A stretch of DNA of 64,000 nt. It comes from Pezicula radicicola (Eukaryota; Ascomycota; Leotiomycetes; Helotiales; Dermateaceae). Under the pieces are notes generated by a model. The model was not told where the DNA came from. It ran no database searches and worked only from the letters and a program-made list of their open reading frames with translations. A program made the translations under genes and the position numbers. Shown here piece after piece: positions 1,224-64,000 of this stretch. The stretch is taken from positions 84,501 through 148,500 of the forward strand of contig PDUO01000056.1 in assembly GCA_003008705.1 (NCBI GenBank), given 5' to 3'. The stretch's first letter is position 1. Every line of letters starts with the position of its first letter.

Positions 1224-2290
1224 TAGTTAGTAGGCTTGAATTGAAGATTTATAATATATATCATGGGCTTCTGGTACAGAGAATGATGCACTCTTGAATG
1301 ACAAAATTCGTTGCGGCACACACAACTGTCCAGTTACTACTCGAAAGACTCACTTTAGATTTCGACAAGTGAACCCGCAGGTATGGAATAGCCTACATGA
1401 GTAACGGGCATAATTAGAAAGTAATACAGAAACCTCAAGATATAAAACACAAGTGAATCTACACCATCCACTACCCACTATCCACCATCCACCAATCTAC
1501 CCACACAACATGAGCAACCACAACGAAGACCAATCCAACCTACAAACCAAACCAAACCAAACCAAACCCGACCTCTATCCCTCTCCTCTCCTCCCCTCCT
1601 CTCCTTCCCACTCTCTCTAAAAAGAAGCAACCTTCCTCTATTCTATTCTACACTTCCACACCAAAGAATCCCAAAACAAGAACCAAAAATGAAAAAAATC
1701 ATGAATAGGAAATTAGGGTTGTGGTTGTAGTTATAGTTAGCATCTCCAGAAGTGAAGTAATATAGAAGCCAGGTAGTAAAGTAATTTTTTTTTTGTATAA
1801 ATAATGATTTGATTATAGAGGAGGTCATTGATTGAACACTGTAGTTGGTACCTTCCGTACTTATGTTGGAAATAAGTAGACTGGTGTGAGGAATACTTGT
1901 TTTATTACCTCGAAGATAGGATAGCTTAGTTTTAAGATCATAAATCACAGATCATACCCTGGAGGAGGAAAATGTTTATCAAATTATAGTTGATTAGTAG
2001 GAGTTTCTGTAAGTTATTTGCGGATATGTAGTATGTAAATTATGTACAGTATAGTGTAGTGAGTACTCCATAGTAGGTTGAACATCAGCTTGAGATTGAG
2101 ATTGAGGTTCAGATTCAGATTCAGAATTAGTCTATATATCTAGACACAGGGCTAACTCCATTCGACTTGACTCGACAGAACAGTCTTTGGGTAAGTACTC
2201 TACAGTTACAAGAAGTGATTATTCCAAACCCCTTCCCCAGAACGCGGAACGCCACGAATGCCCTCCCTGCTTGTTGAACGTAGTGACAAT
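1224..2290. other. Convergent intergenic region, no gene recognised
   Basis: This lies between the 3' ends of the zinc-cluster gene (+) and the UBX gene (-). It holds pyrimidine-rich simple sequence around 1450-1620 and a short degenerate GATTGAGATT/CAGATTCAG run near 2090-2130. ORFs here are short and unrecognisable. The region presumably holds both 3' UTRs. Confidence 0.6.
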
Positions 2291-18345: not shown

Positions 18346-18780
18346 AGATATTACAACAACTAAAATAAAATACACTAGTCTTTGGATTTACTCTCTCTAA
18401 AGCTCTCCGGAGCAATAACTCCCTAAACGCCGGACTTAGAGACTAAAGACTAGCCCTAGAATAGGTATAATAAAACATTTAATACTTCGGCGGAGATATA
18501 AATCAAGTAATAATATTTAGATAGAGTTTAGGTGTACTAAGTATAATATTATAAATTCTAGCCTATAGAGGAACGAAAGAAATACTATTTAACGGAGCAA
18601 TAATATAAAGTATAGTTCTAGAACCAACAATAACAAGTAATCTAACCCTCGATACATTCAACGCCGTAGTGTAACTCCTGTTATATTCTATTTACGATCT
18701 TGAATGACTTTTAGGCCACTTCTGTTCTATCAAAGCTCTACGTACTAAAGTACTTTCGTACCTAGGGAGGGATACGCAAT
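18346..18780. other. AT-rich decayed sequence between two repeat clusters
   Basis: Stop-ridden in all frames with RIP-like composition. A faint peptide (NERNTI, NIKYSSRTNNN) was not assignable. Confidence 0.4.
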
Positions 18781-45719: not shown

Positions 45720-46739
45720 CCTTAGCTTGAAGCTATCGCTACTCCTTGTCCCGGTAGACGGCTATCCAAACTTATATTCCTGGTATCCTATTGAATCCAT
45801 CCAATCAACCTAGGCTTTCCTTAAAGGTATGGATATCTAGGTTTGGTGATATACAATAAATATAATACAACTAGTTGTGTTTTTGATGATTCAATGGTAT
45901 GGAGGCTAAAAACGATCCTGGTTTTGTTGTATATCGTAAAAATCTAATATTTTATCAGGAGGCTTATTATCTTTAAACCCCTGTTCTCTATCGAAACCTT
46001 ACTTTTCCAATCACTATCTTTCTCTTGCGAAGCTACAGTACCTTGATTACTATGAATTATATAGTACTACTCCGATAATTAGCTTCGCTCGGGATACTAT
46101 ATAATTCCTTCGCTAAGTCCAGACTAGTCAACTTTCCCTTCGGATCTTGTTCAGTAGCTATATCTATAATTATGATATTACTTTAGAAATGACCTAACTA
46201 TGAATCTTCCTATTCTTAAGTAGCGACTTATAACCGGCGATAGTATTACGCAGCGCCGATAGAGGCTCCTTAACTGATGTATATGTATAAAGTGATCGTC
46301 TATCTCGTAAAACACTAATCAATAATGTATTCGGTGGCTGTATACGTCGGTCTCCTAGCCGGCTTTGGCTTCCTCAAACTTTAATCAGAGAGACAAGTTA
46401 CCCTTATAAAGCCCGGCTTGATGTGAGAGTAAACGACCCACTAGACTCGGTCGCAAGACACGTGTTTATAAGTTGCCGGGAGCAACGCGCCATGGTAAAA
46501 GGCCCCTTATCTAGGCAAAGAGTTCGCTAGTGAGAGCTGTAGTCTTCGGCGTTGTACACAAGTTGCTAGCTAGTTCTGAAGATGTAATTTAATCGCTCGG
46601 GTTCCCTATTAGTATTCTGTGGAGGACGGAAAGCTTGCTTGGTATCCTCTTCCTGCTCTGCTCGACCTCGCTAAGCTACTTCAGCATCTTCGAAGTATTG
46701 TCCCTGTTGTCACCAATGTTTATGATCTTCTAATTACCA
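45720..46739. other. No gene recognised
   Basis: AT-rich in parts. 45830-45960 has imperfect inverted words (GATATACAATA and TTGTATATCG). The C-terminal end of the kinase pseudogene may extend into the right side. Confidence 0.4.
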
Positions 46740-48496
46740 ACTAGTGGCAGTGGTATTAGGGTGAAAGTAAATTTCATGGTGATTCCAAAGGCCTATATAT
46801 CGATAGTATACCCTCGTTTACTATCGAGGAGATACTCTGGTTGTATATAGGTAGGTATCCCTCCGTCGTAAGATATTGATTCGACAGTATATCTAATAGA
46901 AAATCCAAAGTCGTAAATCTTAGCCTGATGGTCTTCGCTCAGGAGTATATTTTCGGCTTTGATATCGAGATAGAGGATTTTCTTGATATAAATGTATTAA
47001 TGTCTATCCATATCTGGTGTACCGTATCCTCCGATAGTTGTAACATCCCCCATCCGTCGACGAACTTCGAAAGGTCTTGTCCACCGTATTCTAACTTGAG
47101 GCGTAATTTCGGGGCATCGAAGAGCAGAAGTTTTGTGATAGATGGCTGCCGAAACATGAGATCAGGCAATAACGTTCCACCTATGTTACTTACATGATTT
47201 AAGCAGCTCATTATCGCCAGTTCATTTCTCCACGTGTCGGCGGACTCCTTGACTATAGGTTTTCGGTACACCTTGTCGCAACTATAGCTTCCTTGCGGGA
47301 AGCCTTGAAGACTAGCGTTTGTCTGGTTTTGCCAATAAGGATGTCTAGGGCACGAGATCCTCGCCAGGAAGAAGAGGGTGGTCGTGGCTCAGGATCCTCC
47401 GCTCTAACTACTACTCTTTGTCCTGCACAACCTGCCCAAGTCCTCTTCCTCACAGAGCGTGCCCTCGACATAGCGATGCTTGGTAACGGTAGTTGACGGG
47501 TTTTGTTTTTGGTTAGAACAACTGGGTCGGCTTCGTCTGAATGCTTCACGGGTAGGGGATTTATCGTCGGGAAAGGGGAGATGAACGACCAGTCGTCATA
47601 CATTTCTCGAGGAGCCTGCGATATAACCTTCATCTAGAAGTCCAATCCTTTGCCATGTATAAGTTGCCAACCACCGCGGCCAGGCCTAGCATCTTAACCT
47701 AGTAGTATATCATTATGAACTTGAGGTATGGTAAGGGAGCGTATACCAAAAGTAGAGGTTGAACTGTTAAACAGTATCAAGGCGTCGTGGTCAGGGTCTG
47801 GATATAGCTGGACGTGAACGAGGTTGATGTAACATTGGTCCTCGTCGGCGGGGATCGGGATGCTTGAGGACCACGTCATATCTAAGGACCCGCTAAGTGT
47901 AAATCTTTCTTTATCCCCGGATTGTTCAATTATAATGGCAGCTTAGCTCCGACTTCGCCTTCGCGTGGTGGGCTGTTCGTGGTAACCTGCGTCAGCGCAG
48001 TGCTGACTTCGTCTTCGGAAGAACTGTTGGAAGGCGATATTAGAGGTATGAAATATGCAATTAAGCAGACCATCCTGTCGTTCTCTTCTAAGCGGATAGC
48101 GTAGAGTGCTGATTCTGACTTTGGGAGAAGGATTGCTCGTAGGTTCGATTGGTCAAACCGGGACAAATCTGCTTCATTAACGGTTTCTATCGCCTTTAAC
48201 GCGATGCAGCTCCTCGCTCTAGGAGACATTGTTAGATCAACTGATCAACTGGTGCTAGCGATCGTAGAAGGTTTGACTTACAACTCGAAAAGAGGACATA
48301 GCAACATTGTTATCGACTCGTCCCAATTCTCGTGCAGAGTATGCCCAGAAGACAATACCTCGTAGTCCACTAATTCCACGGCTTTCCCCACTCGTCCTTC
48401 CCGCCCACCCCCTGCGCCAACATCACGTGTCTGTTCAGGCCATTCAGACCAATGCAGTCCTTCCCCAGCGCTCTGCAGTTGTATACGAACTCTGTA

Positions 48497-48654
48497 CAGA
48501 AGGGGGTAAGAAGAAATAAGCGTCACCCCACCTGGGCTCGCTTCCAACACTTTAGGGTCTCAAAGGTGCGCAATCCTAATACTAACGCCCTGAAACTACG
48601 TATATCCAGTCACGCAAGCCAGGGGTGACGCTTATTTCTTCCTACCCCCTTCCG
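48497..48654. mobile_element. MITE 1 with ~30-bp TIRs, TA target
   Basis: 158 bp. Terminal inverted repeats GGGGGTAAGAAGAAATAAGC and its mirror GCTTATTTCTTCCTACCCCC enclose ~85 bp without an ORF. TA lies at 48495-48496 and 48655-48656. The interior is related to MITE 2 (GGTGCGCA, CCCTGAAA, CAGTCACGC in the same order). Confidence 0.9.
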
Positions 48655-48656
48655 TA

Positions 48657-48815
48657 CGAAAGGGGGTGGACAGAAATAAGCGTCACCCTCCCTACCTCGC
48701 TTGTAGGCCTGCAGCGTGTCTTAGGTGCGCAGTTCTAATACTTCGGCCCTGAAAGTGCGTATATTCAGTCACGCTAGCCAAGGGGGTGACGCTTATTTCT
48801 GTCCACCCCCTTTCG
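48657..48815. mobile_element. MITE 2 with perfect ~32-bp TIRs, TA target
   Basis: 159 bp beginning CGAAAGGGGGTGGACAGAAA and ending with its exact mirror. TA lies at 48655-48656 (shared with MITE 1) and 48816-48817 (shared with the next element). The TIR core ATAAGCGTCACCC is shared with MITE 1 and, with one change (ATCAGCGTCACCC), with the mariner-like element. Confidence 0.92.
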
Positions 48816-48817
48816 TA

Positions 48818-50198
48818 CGGTAGGTCTCAAGAAATCAGCGTCACCCCCCCTGCTAGACCCACTCTATTCTGCCACTTAGCTATACTAAATAAGGGAAGGA
48901 AATGATGCTGCTATTAAGGTTAAATAAGTATATCTTCATTTAATAGGGAGTCTGGGCTCCCTTTCGAAGCCTGACTTTTTCAAGCCTTTGTGGTATAGAA
49001 TCTATATACTTATTAAAGTACTCTTCTGCTGAAATCTCATTATCCCATATATTAATAAGAGCATCTTGTAATTACTCTATACTCCATCCCCCATTTGGTC
49101 TCCTATTCCGTAGAAGTTGCTTAAGAACTCTCTATACATTCTCAATAGGGTTTAAATCAGGAGAAGAAGGGGGCCAATCAATAGAGAGAATATAGTATTC
49201 AACTCTTGCCTTATTACAAAGGCCTTGATTCTTTTCAGTATCCTTCTTGCCATGTACTGTACTCCCGTCCTCTACATAGAAGAAGCCTAAGCCTCTTCTT
49301 TCCTCGAATATCTCCTGAAGTAGGCCTCGAAGGATCTACTTCTCGTACTTCTGTTGTGTAAAGCCCTTCCCTTGTCCTTCTGTTGAAATAATATGTAGTT
49401 TACTCTTAAAATTATACCCAATTGCAGCCCAATAAGATACAGACCTCCGACCACTATGAAATGTAAATTGTATATAATCAAGTCGTCTCCTTTTACTTCG
49501 ATTTCGGAGGACCCTTCGGCGTCGGTGAATACTTGTATTTACTATCATTTCGTCTATATATATACCCTTCCTCCAATACTCAACAGGCCTATCCCAATTT
49601 ACCTACGAAAAGATCCATCTCTTGTACTTTATTTCCTTCGAAAGAAAAGGCTTGCTATCAGCTGAGTAGTAATGATAACCATGCTTTGTAAGGGCTGAAA
49701 TAAGTATATTATTACAGACATTAAGGCCATGTATTTGAGCGATCTCTTTCAGAGGTAGGGTTCGGTGATCGAAATATCCTGTCATCCACTTAATTATCTC
49801 ATCCACCTTCTCCTCAGATATAATCGGGGGCCTTCCAGGCCTTGATTTACCTGTTCTGCGATCGCTCGACGAGTAGAGCCACTCTCGGGCTGTTGTACGA
49901 GGTACCTTAGCCATATGTACTGCCATCACTTGGGAGTGGCCTTCCTCGAGGAAGCCGAAAAATCGAGACCGACGAGGGGTTTCGTGCTCTTTACGCGAGG
50001 TAATTCTCTTTGGGATCGTACGGACGCGTACCATTTCGATGATTCAATTCGAGTTTGTATTGATTTGATTCTGAATTGTTGAGTTGATTCGAAGTCGTGG
50101 GTAGTGGTGTTGAGAGAGAGAATGTGCTAGAAGCGGCGGCAGATTAACTTCACCGCCCGACCAGGGGGGTGACGCTGATTTCTTGAAACCACCCTTCG
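48818..50198 (-). mobile_element. Tc1/mariner-type transposon, full length, TA target
   Basis: 1381 bp with related ends CAAGAAATCAGCGTCACCCC (left) and its mirror (right, 50150-50185), TA at 48816-48817 and 50199-50200, and a minus-strand transposase reading frame. The ends show an indel relative to each other. It is the probable source family for the TIRs of the two adjacent MITEs. Confidence 0.9.
48940..50034 (-). pseudogene. Tc1/mariner-family DDE transposase with four in-frame TAGs
   Basis: One reading frame of about 364 codons. N-terminal helix-turn-helix part: TTAREWLYSSSDRRTGKSRP, then GRPPIISEEKVDEIIKWMTG and LKEIAQIHGL. Catalytic part: WRKGIYIDEMIV (first Asp), GFFYVEDGSTVHG (second Asp), and IDWPPSSPDLNPIENV, the classic third-residue motif. 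The stops lie after KRWIFS, KYEK, PIENV and GWSIE. All are TAG, and the one after PIENV replaces a normally conserved Trp (TGG), as G-to-A decay would. Start ATG 50034. Confidence 0.88.
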
Positions 50199-50340
50199 TA
50201 CCGACCCGTGTAGCGATCTTGCATAAATCTGTACGCTACAGCAGCCACAAGGAGGTTGACGATCTCCTGTAAAGTGAGGAGGCTTTGGAGCTCGGATAAG
50301 ACTCTTTTACAACAATTAGGGATGGTATACGCTTGGTGGT

Positions 50341-51699
50341 GGAGCTGTGGTAGAGGAGATCTGTTATACTGTGAAAAGAGACTCTTTATAAATCAGGCGT
50401 GAGGGCGACGATGTAAACGTGATATCCTAGTGAGAAGGGCTTAGGGTGTTCGGGAATGGCCACGGAATATAACTTATAAGAAATTATAGGAGATATCGAG
50501 GTATAGATAGATTTTAAGATTCTTGAAGTCAAAGTACCTATGATTTTTTCCGGTACATAGGGTTTTCCGCCACGCAGGGATGGACGTTACAATAAAAAGT
50601 ACTTATATTCAGAGTTAGTAATATATTATTTACACTATTCCTCTTAATACAGCGATCCATTAATCTCGAAATTCATCCAATTTCATTGGTCTGTCTCGGT
50701 ACATAGGGAGTCTCGCTACGCAGGGAGGGATATTAATACTAGCAAAACCTAATTTCATAACGTAAATAATCTTAGTATAAAATTATAGATAGCTTATTGG
50801 ATCCTATATTATATATTGACCGCCTTCGAAATCATACTCCCAAATATCTATAAGGAAAACCTTATCTAAAGACAACGTTGAAATATAATTAATAAAAGAA
50901 CTAAATTCATCAACGAATATTATTCTCTATAAATTTATACTCTTGATATAAGGTTCTACACCGATAAGAGCTCCCTATAGTTGTTCTATGGAGATTTCGA
51001 ACCTACTAAGCCTTAAAATTTCTAATTCAGAATTCACTCCTATTACTTTCGAAATAACATCTGAATCAAGAAATTCAGACTCATCATTATAGATAGAGAG
51101 CTCTCTGAGGTTGGTTATACAAAACAAGATATCATATATAGGATCCAAGTCCTGGTCTAGAGAATTAACTTTGACTTCTATAGAATATACTTAGTAAAGA
51201 AAAGTCGTTCTAAATTTAATCAAGCTATGACAACTAGAGACTATTATATTTTATATCCGGACCTTAAAGTAATTAACTTCCTGACTAGATGAGGCCTTTT
51301 GTATTACCTAAGTAATAGCTTTTATATAATGATGATACTGATTTCTTTCCGTTTCTAGACTATAGTTTATTATAATGGTGTTATACTTGGTAGAAGGATG
51401 AAGTCCTCTTTTAAGAATTTTATATAAATAGTACTAAGCTATTTCTTGAGGTATATCGAAATATAGAGGAATATGAACTAGGTCTAGTTGAATAAATATC
51501 TTTTGGATGAAATAATATTGTTCTTTCTTTGTAATATCTTTTATGGTTTATAAACTCTGGCTCTCTAGTTTAACTGGTAAGATATGAAAATACTTCTCGT
51601 CAAAAGTATACTTGCCATTGTTATAAATCTAGCGGTAACTCAATAAGAAGTTACGGGCGTCTTCAATAGGTAAATCTTTTATGACTCTGTAGATGAGTT
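50341..51699. other. AT-rich, holds left inverted repeat of a 6.4-kb block
   Basis: 50523-50592 is the left copy of a ~70-bp inverted repeat, and 50695-50736 is a third, direct, partial copy (CTCGGTACATAGGG ... CTACGCAGGGA). The rest is stop-rich and AT-rich. Nothing else is recognised. Confidence 0.5.
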
Positions 51700-56475: not shown

Positions 56476-57800
56476 AGTAAATATAATTAAATATATTCAT
56501 AGATTATTTAGTATCTCATTGGAAGTAAGTAGATTTATTTAATAGACCTTAGTACCTTAATTTTATTTAAAGAAAAATGTTTTAGATCATGCTAGTTTAG
56601 CCCACTAATTTTAAATAATAGTAGAGTTCGAAATCAGCTTTAGTTTAATGATTTTATTTTTGACCTATATTTTATACAACACTAACCCTATACGGCTAGC
56701 CTAGCTCTGGACCCCTGTATTAACTTGTTTTCCCGTGCTGTACGTAGCTGCCTAAGGATCTTACATCGCTGGTCATCTGTATTATTTCTAATAGATACCC
56801 TTCCTTGAAAAGGTTCAACTTTCTACTATTCCTTCACTCGATATGCAGTATAACGTCCATCCCTGTATAGCGAGAAACCCGCCGTACCGAGAAAAATAAT
56901 AGGTACTTTAACTTTGAGTAACTAAAATCCTATATATATATCAATATATTTTATAATTTTATATAAGTTATCTTCTATAGCAACTACTAAACACTATGAG
57001 CCAATGCTACTAGAAAATTATATTCGTGTCGTTACCCTTGCCACTGATTTATAGGTAGTCTTATTTTGTAATATAATAGACTTTCTTAAGAAAAGCTTGA
57101 TTATCTAGCTTTTATCTCCCCTATTATATATAAAAGAGTTACATTAAAGCTGTAAAGCCTTCTTATCAAGCTGGAAGTTATTATCGGCTTTGTAGTTATT
57201 GTATTATACTAGATCACTACCCTGGTAGGTACCTTAAATTAAGCGGCCCTACATTATATATAATTACTAAACCAAGTGACTGAATTTCGCTTATATAATC
57301 ATTACAAGTATAAGTTAGCTCCTCTACAACGTCTGGATATATACACTCAAAGGTAAGTTGAATAACTAGAAAATTATTTTTAGTATAAATATATAGAGAA
57401 AAGAACTATTATATATAAGGTATTCGCTATAGAGCTATAGATTAAGTATAGGACCTTAGACTAAGCTTTTAAAATAACTTATATTATTTTAATATTAAGA
57501 GAGACTTTTTAATACTAGGATATAATAATCCTATTAGTAGATTATTTATATACTCTTCTATTTCTACTAGGGTCTTATTCTTAACTATAGTATTTAAAGT
57601 ATATAATTTATCTTATAAAGTTATAGATTTAGTATATTTAAGTTTAAAAACTTACTTATACTTATATAATACCTTTGAAAATATAGTTCTAGCCTTTACT
57701 AGATTAGTTTAATATTCGAAGAGAAGGTCTAAGTTTAAGATTATATTTAGTACTAGGATATAAGTAGTAATATTATCTAAACTAATTATATTCTTATAAC
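56476..57800. other. AT-rich decayed sequence with right inverted repeat
   Basis: Includes the right inverted-repeat copy (56852-56922). From about 57000 the sequence is extremely AT-rich, and 57540-57800 may be the decayed C-terminal end of the TPR gene that follows on the minus strand. No further gene can be read. Confidence 0.45.
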
Positions 57801-58440
57801 CTTATAGTATCTATTAGTATATCTATTTAGCCTTAACTAGCTTATTCTAATTAGTATAAAGACTCTCTAGGTTATTAATTATATTAAGTATTAATATATA
57901 GTCTAAACCTTATATCTTCTCTTTATCTTATAGTATCTATTAGTATATCTACTTAGTCTTAACTAGCTTACTCTAGTTAGTATAAAGAGTTATTAGGTTA
58001 TTAACTATATTGAGTATTAATATATAGTCTAGACCCTATACCTTCTTATAGTCTTATAGTATCTACTAGTATATTTATTTAGTCTTAACTAACTTACTTT
58101 AATTAGTATAGAGGAGACCTAGATTATTAATTATAGAGAGTATTAATATATAGTCTAGACCTTATACCTTCTCTTTACTATATAGTATCTACTAGTATAT
58201 CTACTTAGTCTTAACTAGTTTACTCTAGTTCTTATAAAGGTTCCTTAGGTTATTAACTATAAAGAGTATTAATATATAGTCTAGACCCTATACCTTCTCT
58301 TTACCTTATAGTATCTACTAGTATATCTACTTAGCCTTAACTAGTTTACTCTAGTTCTTATAAAGGTTCCTTAGATTATTAACTATATTAAGTATTAATA
58401 TATAGTCTAGACCCTATATCTTCTCTTTATCTTATAGTAT
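57801..58440 (-). pseudogene. Five 126-bp tandem repeats: RIP-decayed TPR (kinesin-light-chain type) array
   Basis: Units begin at 57801, 57927, 58053, 58179 and 58305, with a partial sixth at 58431; the period is exactly 126 bp, or 42 codons. The minus strand of each unit reads GKEKV*GLDYILILFIVNNL then RNLYKN*SKLVKTK*IY**I. Reversing C-to-T and G-to-A changes gives the 42-residue kinesin-light-chain TPR pattern: GKEKALGPDH, VNNLGNLYKNQGKLAEAE. Such arrays form the C-terminal sensor of fungal NB-ARC/TPR NLR-like proteins. No NB-ARC part is recognisable on the upstream (higher-coordinate) side, where homology stops abruptly at about 58440. Confidence 0.85.
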
Positions 58441-61400
58441 TATAGGAGGGTAAATCTCTAGACTATATATATAGAAACGTAGAATATAGAGTAGAGGGTA
58501 GAATAAGATAATAAATAGATATAGAATATAATTATATAATATAGTTAAAATTATTAATATTATTAAAGGTAAAGTTAATATAAAAGAATATTAAATTATT
58601 ATATTTTCTAAGGCTTTCTACTTAGCTTTTATATAGTAATTTAAACTAAGTCTAATTATTTAATTAAAAATTAAACTTACCCTAGTATATTTATCCCCCC
58701 TTCCTTTAACTACTTACCCTCGAGTAGTTTTAGTTTTTCTTTAAATTCTAGAGGAAATTAAGTATAAAACTTAAGAATAAAATAAATAAATAAAAGAGTA
58801 ATAGTAGTAAGTTATAGTATTGAAATAGAGAGTAGTTTTATTAATAGTCTAATATAATCTATATAATATTTATTACTTATATAATAGTCTCCTAAAGTAA
58901 TTACTTTTTACTTCTTCCTCTAATTTCAATAACCTCTTCTTAATTAATTCTAGTAACTATTCTACTAATAATATTATTAATAAACTATTTAATAAAGGAA
59001 AGTATCTCCTTCTCTTTATCCTTAAAGAAAGTTAATTAAAAACTAGAGTATTTTAATACAACTATACTTCTTCGAAGTCGTTGACCTTATTACTAGTTCT
59101 AGTCTTAAATCTACCTTTTTCAAGAACTATATTTACTACCCTACTTTTAACTTTAAACTCCTAAACCTATATAAACTCTCTTCTTTCTTTAATAAATAAT
59201 CTTCTTCTTCCCTCTTTTATTATTATTATCTACTATAGATTAATTTTAAATTTAATCCTCTCTCTTTATTAATAACCTCTTCTAAGATTATTAACCTTAT
59301 CTAATATTAATAAACTATATACTAGTAAGAATTATTCCTTCTCTTCTATTATTTTCTTAAATAAACTAATACTATTTTATAACTCTAAGTTTATTATTAA
59401 GTACTTATATTTATAATAAGTTTTAATCTATAATAATCTTATCTTCTCCTTTAATAATAATAGTTAAGTATCTCTTCTCCTTTATCTTACCTAGTTAACT
59501 TTTAAAGCCTCTTAATTAAATCCTTATTACTAACTTATTTTAATAATATCCTTATCTTTATACTTATATATAATATAAAAGAGAAGTCTCTTATTCCTTT
59601 CCTTTCTTCTATACGTTTCTATATACTCTAGAGTAGACTAATATCACTAGTATATAATTTAGTATTTATTCTTTAGTTATCCTCGATAATCTCCTCCTTT
59701 TTTATCTTCGCTACTCCTTCTTTAGTTATAATATATATAAGTATATTACCTTTCCCTTATTCTTCGCGAGTATACCTACCTCTTAAGCCTCTTATAGCCT
59801 CTAAAAGACCTTTTAATACCTCTACTTAATTACTATCTATAGATAAATAGTTATAGTAAGTCTACTTAAAGTTTAAAGACTACTTAGTATAGTTAGCTTA
59901 AGACTATACTAACCTTAAACTTTAGTTTAAATCCTTTCTTTACTATTATTCTAATCTAATAATATCTCTTCTTTATTCTTACCCTTTAAGTCTTTTTTTT
60001 ATCTAATATTATTAAGAGAAGTATCTTTTCCTCCCCTTTTTATAGTATATATTAATATTAATTATAGTAATCTAAACTATTAATTTCTTATTTTATCCCT
60101 TAGTTTTAAACCTACCTATAAGCTTTCTCCCAGGGGTTAACTCTCTTCTAAGAAAGACTACCTCTTTAGAAAAGGGAGATTTATACTATTACTATACCCT
60201 AGAGCTACTATACTTTATCTAGATAGGTTGAATATTATATTAATATTAATTTAACCTAAGCTAAGCTCTTACTTTAGTCTTACTAGTATAGTAGTTACTT
60301 AATTATTAACTAATAGTTAGTTTCTAATTAGTAGTACCTCTTTATTTCTTATAGGAATTAGTTTATCTTATTCCTTCTAGGGCTCTTTTTAGACTTAACT
60401 CTTATCTTTATATAGTTCGAGTTAGTTTTAAATCTTTAATTTTTTCCCTAGGAAGTATCTCCTCCTCCCTTTTAGAATCTTATTAACTATATATATAGAC
60501 TATCTATATAGTATTCTACCTTATCTAAGTTATTCCTAATTTTAATATTAATTATTAATAATATTAATAATAATCTCAACCTATAGTACTATTATAAAGG
60601 GAGTATCTATTTAATCTTTTAGTTTAAACTATTTTAAATTAGTAAGACTCCTCTCCTTAACTTCCTTTATATCTTTTTATCTAGTTATTATCTTCTATTA
60701 TAACTTTTATTTATAACTTTTCTTTTATAGATTACTTCTTATAACTCTTCCTTTACTAACTTTTTAATTATATAGTTATTTAAACCTTTAAAATAGTATA
60801 GTTTAGAATTCTAAATAAACTCTATTCCCTCTTTTAGGATAAATTTTAATTATTTAATATTAACTTTTTTAGATTCAACTTCGACTTTAACTTTAATAAC
60901 TCCTAGATCTAGATTTTATAAGCTTTTAAACTTCTTAATTATTCTATCTACTTATAGATATTTAGTTTATATTTAAACTTCTTATATCTAACCTTATTAC
61001 TATATTAGTATTTAGATTCTATTTAATTTCTTATATTTAGTCTTCTAGCTCTAGTCTATCTTCTTTTTAAGACTTTAGTCTTATTATAGTATTATATAAC
61101 TTCTATAAGTACTTTTAAGATATATTAGTTTATTAGTTCTTATCTAGTAGTCTATTACTTCTTAATTAAATAAATAACCTTTATATCTTTTAGTCCTTCC
61201 TTGGACTAATCTTTAAGATTATTAAAGCTATATAGAGAAACCTCTAGACTCTCTTTACTTTTTTATACTAGGGTAAAGAGTTACTAACTTCTTATACTAC
61301 TATTCTCTTAGGTTATTTCCTAAACTCTTTTAAGTTCTTATAAGTCTAACCTTCTCTATTTTAGAGGGTTAGATACTTAGTATTATTTCTTAAAAACTAA

Positions 61401-61849
61401 AGCTATAGACTTAATATTACTCCCTTATATATAGAGTATCTAGGTAGTAGAGAAAAGACCCTTAATCTATATATAAGATATTAAATCTATATCTATTTCT
61501 AGCTATATAGAACGAGAGATCTAGAATAATTCATTATCTTAGAAAGAGGAATATTATACTTAGTAGATATTAACTTATAATATTTTTCCTTCTTGATAAT
61601 AAGAGGAGCTCTAGATATATAAAGGCTAGAAGCTCTAGTATCCTAGAGCTAAGAAATACTTCTACTTGCGGAGGTCTTCTAGACTCTTATTTAGTAGTCT
61701 TTATTATTAAAAACTATATATTAGACTCTTTATTTATCTATTAAAGTTAGTAGTTAAATAATTAGTTTAGTTATTAGTATTTTATTTTATATAGGTTTAT
61801 CTTCTTTAGAGATAGATTTATTATTATTAATATTATTATTATTATTATT
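58441..61849. other. Extremely AT-rich RIP island, contents not identifiable
   Basis: Long stretches are built almost only of A/T with TAG/CTA words. The plus strand is pyrimidine-rich in 58900-60100 (TTCTTCTTCCCTC-like runs). An (ATT)n microsatellite lies at 61818-61857. Coding remnants must exist, but I could not read a protein family on either strand. Confidence 0.5.
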
Positions 61850-62465
61850 ATTAATATTATCCTCCTTAGGAGAATAGAAGTACTACTTTTACTTAATAAA
61901 TAACTTTAGATAGTTTCTTATATAGGTTCTACTTAATTTTAGTTTATTATTATCTATTTCCTTGAGTTTATAATACCCTTTCTTATTATTAGTATAATAT
62001 ATTTTATATAGTTTAAACTATCTAAAATCTAATTTTCTAACTAATAATAAATTCTTTTCTAGAGTAGTATTATATATAAGTATAATATCTTTTACTTATA
62101 AAGGTTTTAATTATATTCTTTTTCTAATATTAAAGAATTCTTTTCCTTCTTATTATAACTAAGTCTTTTAATAAATAACTTTATTTATATCTTCTTTTTA
62201 ATATTAGAATTATTTAGTTTATATTTTAAGTAGTTTTAAATAGTCTATAACCTTATCTATAAAGATAGTTCACTAGGTAGAGAACTATATTTCAATAGAT
62301 AGAATAGGTTCTCTTTTATAAACTATATAGAAAGGAGTATATTTAGTAGGTTTATAAATAATAGTTTAGTCTATAAATAATACTATAGATAGGTTAATAG
62401 TCTAGTTACTACCGAGTTTTAATAGTATATTTTTCAAGGGCTAATAACCCTTTTCAATTATCCTA
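61850..62465 (-). pseudogene. RIP-decayed Ty3/gypsy integrase C-terminal region
   Basis: Minus-strand reading from about 62465: ALEKYTIKTR, KYTPFYIVYKREPILSI-like text broken by stops, then ILILKRRYK and a clear stretch VKDIILIYNTTLEKNLLLVR, KLDFR*FKLYKIYYTNNKKG, YYKLKEIDNNKLKLSRTYIR, NYLKLF. This follows the fungal gypsy pattern LVLLHDTTLE / KLDFRWxGPYRI / GxYxLxELDG after the RIP changes are reversed. The reverse transcriptase and RNase H should precede it at higher coordinates, but another element begins there. Confidence 0.75.
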
Positions 62466-62486
62466 TTACCTAGTATATAATATATA

Positions 62487-64000
62487 AAAACCTATACTAT
62501 TACGGTCCTTACCAGGAACCTTATATATAACTTCTCTATACGTGCCCTTGCTTGGTACTATTCTGTATTTAAACAACTACTCTATCCTTGTTCTTATTCT
62601 CCTTCTTCTTTTTCTCTTTAGTTTAGAATCCTTTATATAGATCCAATAATAGAATTCATTCTTATATATTTATTTACCACTAAAGCTCTTGTTCTATTTA
62701 CTATATCACTATATTATTCTAAACTTACCTCTATACCTAGGAAGGCCATGATAATCTCTAAACCGAATATATAGTTCTACCCCTAGAGTAGGTTAATAAC
62801 TGAGTTAGCTCTAAAGGCTAGACAGGTTAATGATTAAGTTAGTCTCATAGAACAGAAAGCTCGGAAACACTAAGTACTTAGCTTAGTTCAACTAGTTCAG
62901 AATATCTTCTAACTAGCCTTGATCTTAATTACTACCTGATAAGGAGTCCGTTATTAATTTTATCAGAAGAGTATACAATTAGCCCGGTATAGATACCCAC
63001 CAGCACTACGAAGCCAGACAGGACTTGACTTCAATAAACCCCCTAAATACCTTTCTGACCTTTTTATTAAGTTTACAGAAAGATACCTCCCAAGAATACC
63101 AAAGGTAAAGGCCTCGTAGCTTCTACCTATACAGATCCTTCTCTAGAAGAATCTTAGGATAAAACCCTCCAGGAAGATATCACCGCTCAATTAGAAGAAG
63201 AGCTTGATCCTAATACTCAGGATCAAAACTCACTAGCTATAGACCTTTTAGTTACTAATATAATTACCTAAATAAAAGAATAGATCCACCAGCTATAAAA
63301 CACTAATCACCAACTATAAGAATAACTCGACAATTCCTAGGGGAATACCAAAGACCCCTAAAACAATGGTATAGAGTAAGTATAGTCCTAAACTCAAGTA
63401 AGAGACCTACTCCGGTATTAGATATAAGGATGAAACTAGGACACAACTATCCGTCAGACCATTGAGGTAGATAATAACCCCGGACCCTCTGATTTAGACC
63501 ACTCAGGTTCAGATAATTCAGGAACTCCGTTTAGTAGACTATAACCTAGAATAGGCTTATCAAGGACTCCAGGAAGAAGCGGGTACTCTAAGAAGATAAT
63601 AGATCCCCCCTAATTAGACAACAACGTAGACCCTACGTTCAGGGCTTGGAAAATCTTATTAGAGGATAAGTTTAAAGAGAACAGAGATCACTTCCTTACC
63701 AAGAACTCACTTATAAGTTATATTTTCTGGTATACCAAGGGAGAGGCTTAGAAATACCTAGAGCTACTTTACTAAACTAGTAGAGTAGATAACTTCCAGA
63801 ATCACTAGGAAATAATTAACTACTTAGCTAGTATCTATACTAACCTAGATGAAAAAAGAGATACTGAGATTAAGTACTAAGATCTATATATACTCCCAGG
63901 GGAAACTTTCCAGGATTTTAGAACTAAGTTTCTCCAACTAGTAAGGATAGCCGAGATACCTATATCAATAAGGATCAATAATCTATACAATAAGTTAACC
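62487..64000 (+). mobile_element. Ty3/gypsy retrotransposon 5' part with gag, runs off the window
   Basis: From 63618 the plus strand reads LDNNVDPTFRAWKILLEDKF, KENRDHFLTKNSLISYIFWY, TKGEA*KYLELLY*TSRVDN, FQNH*EIINYLASIYTNLDE, LPGETFQDFRTKFLQLVRIA. This is the Ty3/gypsy Gag (retrotrans_gag) pattern with scattered TAG/TAA. Upstream, 62760-63600 is decayed gag N-terminal sequence. A TATTACGGTCCTTACCAGG start near 62485 may be the LTR 5' end (TG altered to TA), but the other LTR is outside the window, so this boundary is inference. Confidence 0.7.

Follow-up and report, generated by a model that had tools for sequence, protein, structure and literature searches.

Serial use of a renewable GTAC target probably underlies three abutting elements of the Tc1-like group in Pezicula radicicola

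Introduction

Where cut-and-paste transposons land, and whether they reuse a target, is usually deduced from single loci. Among the closest described systems is the Triticeae beta-amylase intron, in which, according to the available text of PMC1925063, Stowaway MITEs were repeatedly gained and lost at one TA, the occupants being divergent elements, one of which had inserted into a TA belonging to an older footprint. That a single TA can be used repeatedly is, on that account, already known. Clustered insertions, including independent ones at or very near the same position, are likewise described for the Stowaway-like DcSto MITEs of carrot (accessible part of PMC3695323), and MITE arrays in corals are likewise tandem (accessible part of PMC2872659). 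The Tc1/mariner excision footprint is quoted as 2 to 4 bp in the portion of PMC7913693 that is accessible.

The locus described here lies in the window, by which we refer to the whole 64,000-nt stretch of Pezicula radicicola DNA that was analyzed, located on contig C104 of a 61.04-Mb assembly of 152 contigs. As in the Triticeae Stowaway case, as far as that is set out in the available text of PMC1925063, divergent TA-bordered elements appear to have used one TA repeatedly.

Results and discussion

Architecture of the cluster and placement of its elements

A sequence-only reading of the window had described two MITEs and a mariner element set nose to tail with single TAs at every joint. This order was borne out, the single common TAs lying at 48495, 48655, 48816, and 50199, and inverted repeats are present at both ends of all three elements. 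The cluster comprises the following features:

48495..48496, unstranded: outer left TA, in the context G-TA-C
48497..48654, unstranded: MITE1, 158 bp, with terminal inverted repeats (TIRs) of approximately 34 nt
48655..48656, unstranded: TA common to MITE1 and MITE2 (CCG-TA-CGA)
48657..48815, unstranded: MITE2, 159 bp, the first 32 nt of both TIRs being identical
48816..48817, unstranded: TA common to MITE2 and the Tc1-like element
48818..50198, minus strand: Tc1-like element, 1381 bp, with a broken transposase and an unequal TIR pair
49603..50034, minus strand: N-terminal segment of the disrupted transposase, resembling HTH_Tnp_Tc3_2 at a sub-threshold 23.5 bits (cut-off 31.5)
50199..50200, unstranded: outer right TA, in the context G-TA-C

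Rfam and tRNA scans of the window returned no matches.

An intact transposase open reading frame of 367 codons from stop to stop, or 364 amino acids from the first ATG, is present at locus L054 on contig C90. Its product scores 34.2 bits against PF13358 DDE_3 (cut-off 28.6) and 21.9 bits against HTH_Tnp_Tc3_2, the latter being below the cut-off of 31.5. In an alignment of this query with 61 of the 120 listed homologs (62 sequences), the catalytic residues are D161 (62 of 62), D256 (62 of 62), and E298 (59 of 60); the named homologs belong mainly to Scytalidium, Hyaloscypha, and Rutstroemia. The Tc1 family proper is characterized by 34 residues between the second D and the E (DD34E). The L054 transposase departs from this spacing, with 41 residues in place of 34, and its alignment with Sleeping Beauty (PDB 5cr4), the sole solved structural relative found, displays extra residues in this same interval. 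A TA target-site duplication, a DDE/D transposase, and TIRs, which are traits of the IS630-Tc1-mariner group, are all present, and TA is found on both borders of 17 of the 18 elements in which both ends could be read, the left border of L002 being CA. In place of the label "mariner", the element is properly described as Tc1-like with a DD41E triad and not as a mariner in the narrow sense. The term DD41E was not encountered for a transposase among the papers listed by a search of literature that included few subscription journals.

Separate ancestry of the three elements

Searches of the genome yielded 26 match rows for MITE1, 25 for MITE2, and 37 for the Tc1-like element, with the window copies themselves and rows confined to TIRs counted in. 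The closest whole copy of MITE1 is situated on contig C79 (83% identity), while MITE2 shares 88% identity over 129 nt with a copy on C1, and the identity between the two MITEs is 78%. The Tc1-like element shares 95% identity with L053 on contig C87. Because each of the three has a closer relative elsewhere, they represent separate insertions and not duplicates of one another; three lineages came together at one site. Of the 62 substitutions that separate the window Tc1-like copy from L053, 56 are transitions, which would fit decay of the RIP type.

The TIRs of the MITEs and of the Tc1-like elements possess a common core, with different short variable blocks, and the family ends mostly read CGRAAGGGGGT. 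The relationship that this core had suggested between the MITEs and the Tc1-like element holds genome-wide, with 27 + 27 matches at up to one mismatch against 2 + 4 for the reversed core. Among 19 elements, mean TIR identity is 0.886 between the two ends of one element versus 0.796 across elements, and the former value was reached in 0 of 20,000 permutations. For 13 of the 19 left ends, no other end gave a better match than the element's own right end, the exceptions being L004, L006, L007, L015, L053, and the window's Tc1-like copy. For each MITE of the cluster the own right TIR is the best or equal-best match of the left TIR, that of MITE1 being closest to an element on C62 (L058) and to its own right end, and the two TIRs of the window Tc1-like copy share an identity of 0.74. 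A TIR-internal block of 3 to 5 nt was also seen to differ among elements and to tend to agree between the two ends of one element.

The sequence-only reading had looked to TIR divergence for the order of the three insertions. The TIRs could indeed be compared, but the order cannot be fixed from them: the unequal pair of the window Tc1-like copy is also present in L053, so that its mismatches are inherited and have no dating value, and the shared TAs leave no nesting from which an order could be read.

Preference for GTAC

Around the TA of the empty site, the context G..C was found for 15 of the 18 elements with both borders read, and C adjoins the TA on 43 of 46 border sides, compared to a background of 18%; in the window, 193 of 5577 TAs (3.5%) lie within GTAC. 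As L088 had been picked by a pattern that contains GTAC, the corresponding figures with that locus set aside are 14 of 17 sites and 41 of 44 border sides. Lost or degraded ends (left ends of L003 and L035; right ends of L008, L009, L016, L047, L068, and L075) are omitted from the border counts, as are L013, L014, L041, L045, and L046, together with partial Tc1 copies such as L060, L062, L063, and L070. With C as the first and G as the last base of the elements, an insertion into GTAC recreates this tetranucleotide at both borders; flush stacking is thereby explained, and a neighboring element need not be specially recognized.

The right flank and the origin of the cluster

Immediately to the right of the cluster lies a dispersed repeat, designated R:

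50199..50589, minus strand: repeat R, a long terminal inverted repeat of another DNA transposon, with its outer end at 50589 and its inner side, truncated, at the TA

R is multicopy, being covered by 29 of 39 match rows (one of which is the window itself), while the other 10 correspond to the neighboring repeat. Many rows begin within a few bases of 50589, which identifies this position as the outer end, and at C12:33371/39031 and C147:124503/125515 two copies form an inverted pair whose outer ends point outward, from which R is recognized as a long TIR of a different DNA transposon. A second copy of R, in opposite orientation and with 67% identity, occupies window positions 56851-57163, and a second short repeat arm (50593-50736), whose 39-nt start is common to R, recurs in inverted orientation on C90 and at other positions of C104. 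Window positions 57001-63000 are very low in GC (22-26%), with a strongly negative GC skew at 59-61 kb.

All 13 fetched copies of R carry TAC at the position of the window's TA, preceded by G in 11 and by A in L093 and L096, and all 13 run past the TA into a family tail that differs from the left flank of the window. The tails of six copies, when searched in the window, gave no match. Scores of the left flank against these six tails ranged from 10 to 14, the shuffle means being 11-12, and were equaled by 48 to 286 of 300 shuffles; tail-to-tail scores ranged from 12 to 71, with 5 of 15 pairs reaching only 12-15, a weak side of the tail test, and a common tail is suggested by the better-scoring pairs together with the alignment of the 13 copies. 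The cluster is thus located at the very point at which R breaks off and gives way to unrelated sequence. As the left flank has no match to the R tail, the present locus is not the product of simple serial insertion into one intact site.

We consider serial landing at a self-renewing GTAC, with one side later lost or replaced, to be the best account of these observations and a probable one. Three members of the Tc1-like group, belonging to three subfamilies, would have landed successively at one GTAC, a site that would originally have belonged to R, the terminal inverted repeat of an older DNA transposon. The transposase of this group is presumed to take a TA in GTAC context; insertion into G-TA-C would leave G-TA-C on both sides, such that the preferred target would never be exhausted and the next element could land flush against the previous one. 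While the insertions took place, or afterwards, the inner part of R would have disappeared or been replaced at the border with MITE1, in which case the present left flank was not part of the original target.

The principal alternative holds that two separately occupied sites, one carrying an element on the left and the other carrying one or more elements in R, were fused by recombination of these elements or by their use as a hybrid transposon, the outer TAs then deriving from two loci and the tandem arrangement deriving in part from the fusion. This possibility, which overlaps with the last step of the account preferred above, is a serious one, given that the natural continuation of the right flank is missing and that the break falls exactly at an element border; tandem hAT-derived MITEs have, moreover, been reported at inversion breakpoints in cod (accessible text of PMC12368964), and the unequal TIR pair of the window Tc1-like copy (identity 0.74) could be read in the same way. 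It is weakened by the agreement of each MITE's left TIR with its own right TIR and by the presence of the same unequal pair in the C87 sibling, as a result of which no element looks newly chimeric. Because fusion alone also offers no reason for flush TA sharing, we regard it as the distinctly less likely explanation.

Short motifs as candidate excision footprints

In the account preferred above, excision would leave TA, 6 to 7 nt of a TIR end, and TA, again ending in GTAC, and vacated sites could be hit anew, giving rise to successive units, here termed ladders. The motif GTACN{0,4}TTYCGTAC has 626 matches in the genome (300 + 326) against 97 (42 + 55) for its reversed form, an excess which is somewhat overstated because CATG, on which the reversed form is built, is less frequent in the window than GTAC (164 versus 208). 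Among the 100 matches listed, N equals 0 in 46, 1 in 34, 2 in 8, 3 in 6, and 4 in 6; 74 of these 100 read TA-CTTYCG-TA or TA-CCTTYCG-TA, corresponding to the last 6 or 7 nt of the family ends. The complementary form GTACGRAAN{0,3}TAC has 835 matches versus 253, and among the 100 matches listed, 16, 33, and 22 are of the family type with lengths (n) of 5, 6, and 7 nt, respectively. In 203,668 unique bases, which consist of the window and the loci and are biased to element flanks, seven matches (two of them overlapping) were found for n = 6 and one for n = 7, the Markov-2 expectation being 0.0 for each, while motifs with n = 3, 4, 5, 8, or 9 had none in these bases; the 2-nt class GTACGTAC occurred 6 times against 1.95 expected. 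Two candidates lie in the window, far from the cluster:

1848..1860, unstranded: 7-nt footprint candidate between two TAs
18750..18761, unstranded: 6-nt footprint candidate between two TAs

Ladders were detected as 18 matches at 14 places, the control giving 0 + 0. When all 14 were read, 9 were found to mix unit types and 5 to be uniform, and 3 contain one unit with G or T where the TIR has C. One copy of R (L092), the single footprint compared with paralogs, carries exactly 9 extra bases (7 nt plus TA) at the position of the window's own TA, and these are absent from the 12 other fetched copies. Footprint-like motifs also adjoin resident elements on two (L002 and L012) of 44 border sides, with L088 set aside, where approximately 0.1 would be expected by rough estimate, a finding that is suggestive only. 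We infer from these sequence patterns that the 6- to 7-nt motifs represent excision footprints, although the raised 2-nt class, the 5-nt motifs, and the ladder units that depart from the TIR speak against this reading.

It is improbable, in our judgment, that the motifs instead constitute a dispersed motif or microsatellite unit resembling a TIR end. The uniformity of 5 of the 14 ladders would accord with such an origin, as would the fact that L092 alone was compared with an empty relative; the motif, however, occurs in both TIR variants (CGAAAG and CGGAAG), the single base at N = 1 is C, as in the TIR, in 28 of 34 cases among the matches listed, 9 of the 14 ladders are mixed, and the motif in L092 is an exact addition.

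Several further observations were made on these motifs. At L098 (1-201), a three-step ladder directly adjoins what appears by eye to be a degraded relic of a family MITE. L088 (1-451) and L116 (1-301), both selected by the junction pattern, contain MITEs of other families with the same outer CGAAAGGGGGT of the TIR, adjoining footprint-like steps. GTAC pairs inside Tc1 copies were considered as footprints and rejected, as they correspond to ordinary substitutions. GTAC spacings of 5, 7, 8, and 9 are raised in the set biased to element flanks, and when the window is taken by itself a spacing of 8 is seen 4 times (0.45 expected), one of these being the family motif; nothing is built on spacing here.

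With the GTAC preference, the footprint-motif excess, and the ladders, the repeated targeting of one TA that had been proposed from this locus acquires genome-wide support which lay beyond the view of the initial reading.

Rarity of abutted elements and the remaining alternatives

The abutted junction CCYTTYCGTACGRAARGGG has, at 0 mismatches on both strands of the genome, the MITE1/MITE2 joint as its sole match. At up to 3 mismatches, 61 + 64 genome-wide matches were obtained versus 67 + 55 for the reversed control, which represents no excess, and abutted pairs are thus not common. Complete elements are thus rarely stacked flush, even if the target is rebuilt. That the MITE1/MITE2 junction has no other exact copy also argues against a composite unit, extending from the left end of MITE1 to the right end of the Tc1-like element, which moved in whole; both of its outer ends are TIR ends with TA, as such a unit would require, but they carry different TIR types, and we consider this explanation very unlikely. 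Local tandem duplication or slippage of one MITE, to which the similar length and TIRs of the two might point, can be dismissed with near certainty in view of their 78% identity, the closer relatives that both have elsewhere, and their differing variable TIR blocks.

The sequence-only reading had placed the cluster at an in-frame TA of a kinase gene, the frame of which would be restored upon removal of the three elements. A relevant feature is located on the left:

46700..48229 (approximate), minus strand: kinase-like pseudogene, its motifs recognized by eye

The motifs lie in about 46700-47300, with an N-terminal part extending to about 48229; Pfam searches of six open reading frame pieces of the locus detected no kinase domain at E values of up to 1. 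The left flank (47700-48496) has one relative, with 68% identity over window positions 48145-47749, and the similarity to this single kinase paralog ends at 48145. The flank is 5′ of the pseudogene, and stop codons lie between the pseudogene and the cluster TA. The flanks, when joined without the three elements, are open in one frame, but because TA-to-TA removal always allows some open frame, this argument carries no weight. The kinase-frame test was therefore rejected: on the right lies a dispersed inverted repeat that continues in a way of its own, the TA leading in 13 of 13 fetched R copies into the tail and not into the left flank of the window, and on the left the region beside the TA bears stops and no similarity to the paralog. 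Serial insertion into a kinase reading frame is, despite the pseudogene and the one open frame, almost certainly not what occurred.

Comparison with known systems

On a broader scale, it is conceivable that a fungal DD41E branch of the Tc1-like group cuts 6 to 7 nt inside its own ends and targets a GTAC that is rebuilt by both insertion and excision, with sites revisited repeatedly and these visits logged as footprint ladders and, rarely, as abutted elements; we judge the case for this proposal to be evenly balanced. Should it be true, the target would be renewed by insertion plus excision and stacked scars would make visits to a site countable and orderable from sequence, and both footprint length and catalytic spacing would vary more widely in the Tc1 group than is known at present.

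The family resembles Tc1/mariner elements, as represented by Sleeping Beauty (PDB 5cr4), in its DDE_3 domain, TA duplication, and TIRs, and differs in the 41-residue D-E spacing and in putative scars of 6 to 7 nt compared to the 2 to 4 bp quoted in the accessible portion of PMC7913693. Among the papers listed by a literature search with few subscription journals within reach, titles and abstract openings mentioned no long or stacked Tc1/mariner footprints. The Stowaway TIR CTGCCTCCRT, as given in the accessible part of PMC3695323, is not matched by the Pezicula ends, which mostly read CGRAAGGGGGT, and the account of carrot DcSto in that same part includes neither serial TA sharing nor footprint ladders. 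The coral arrays are of the piggyBac type, with highly similar units ascribed to replication slippage (accessible part of PMC2872659), whereas the Pezicula units are diverged and separately derived. In the Triticeae Stowaway case, as far as the available text of PMC1925063 extends, one site was followed across species and compared with TIR footprints of 1 to 4 bp; the Pezicula family is distinguished from it by abutted elements, a GTAC target, putative footprints of 6 to 7 nt, and ladders across one genome. The 6- to 7-nt scar, the genome-wide ladders, the renewal of GTAC, and the DD41E spacing may be new, in addition to a reuse of one TA for which the Triticeae elements provide the precedent.
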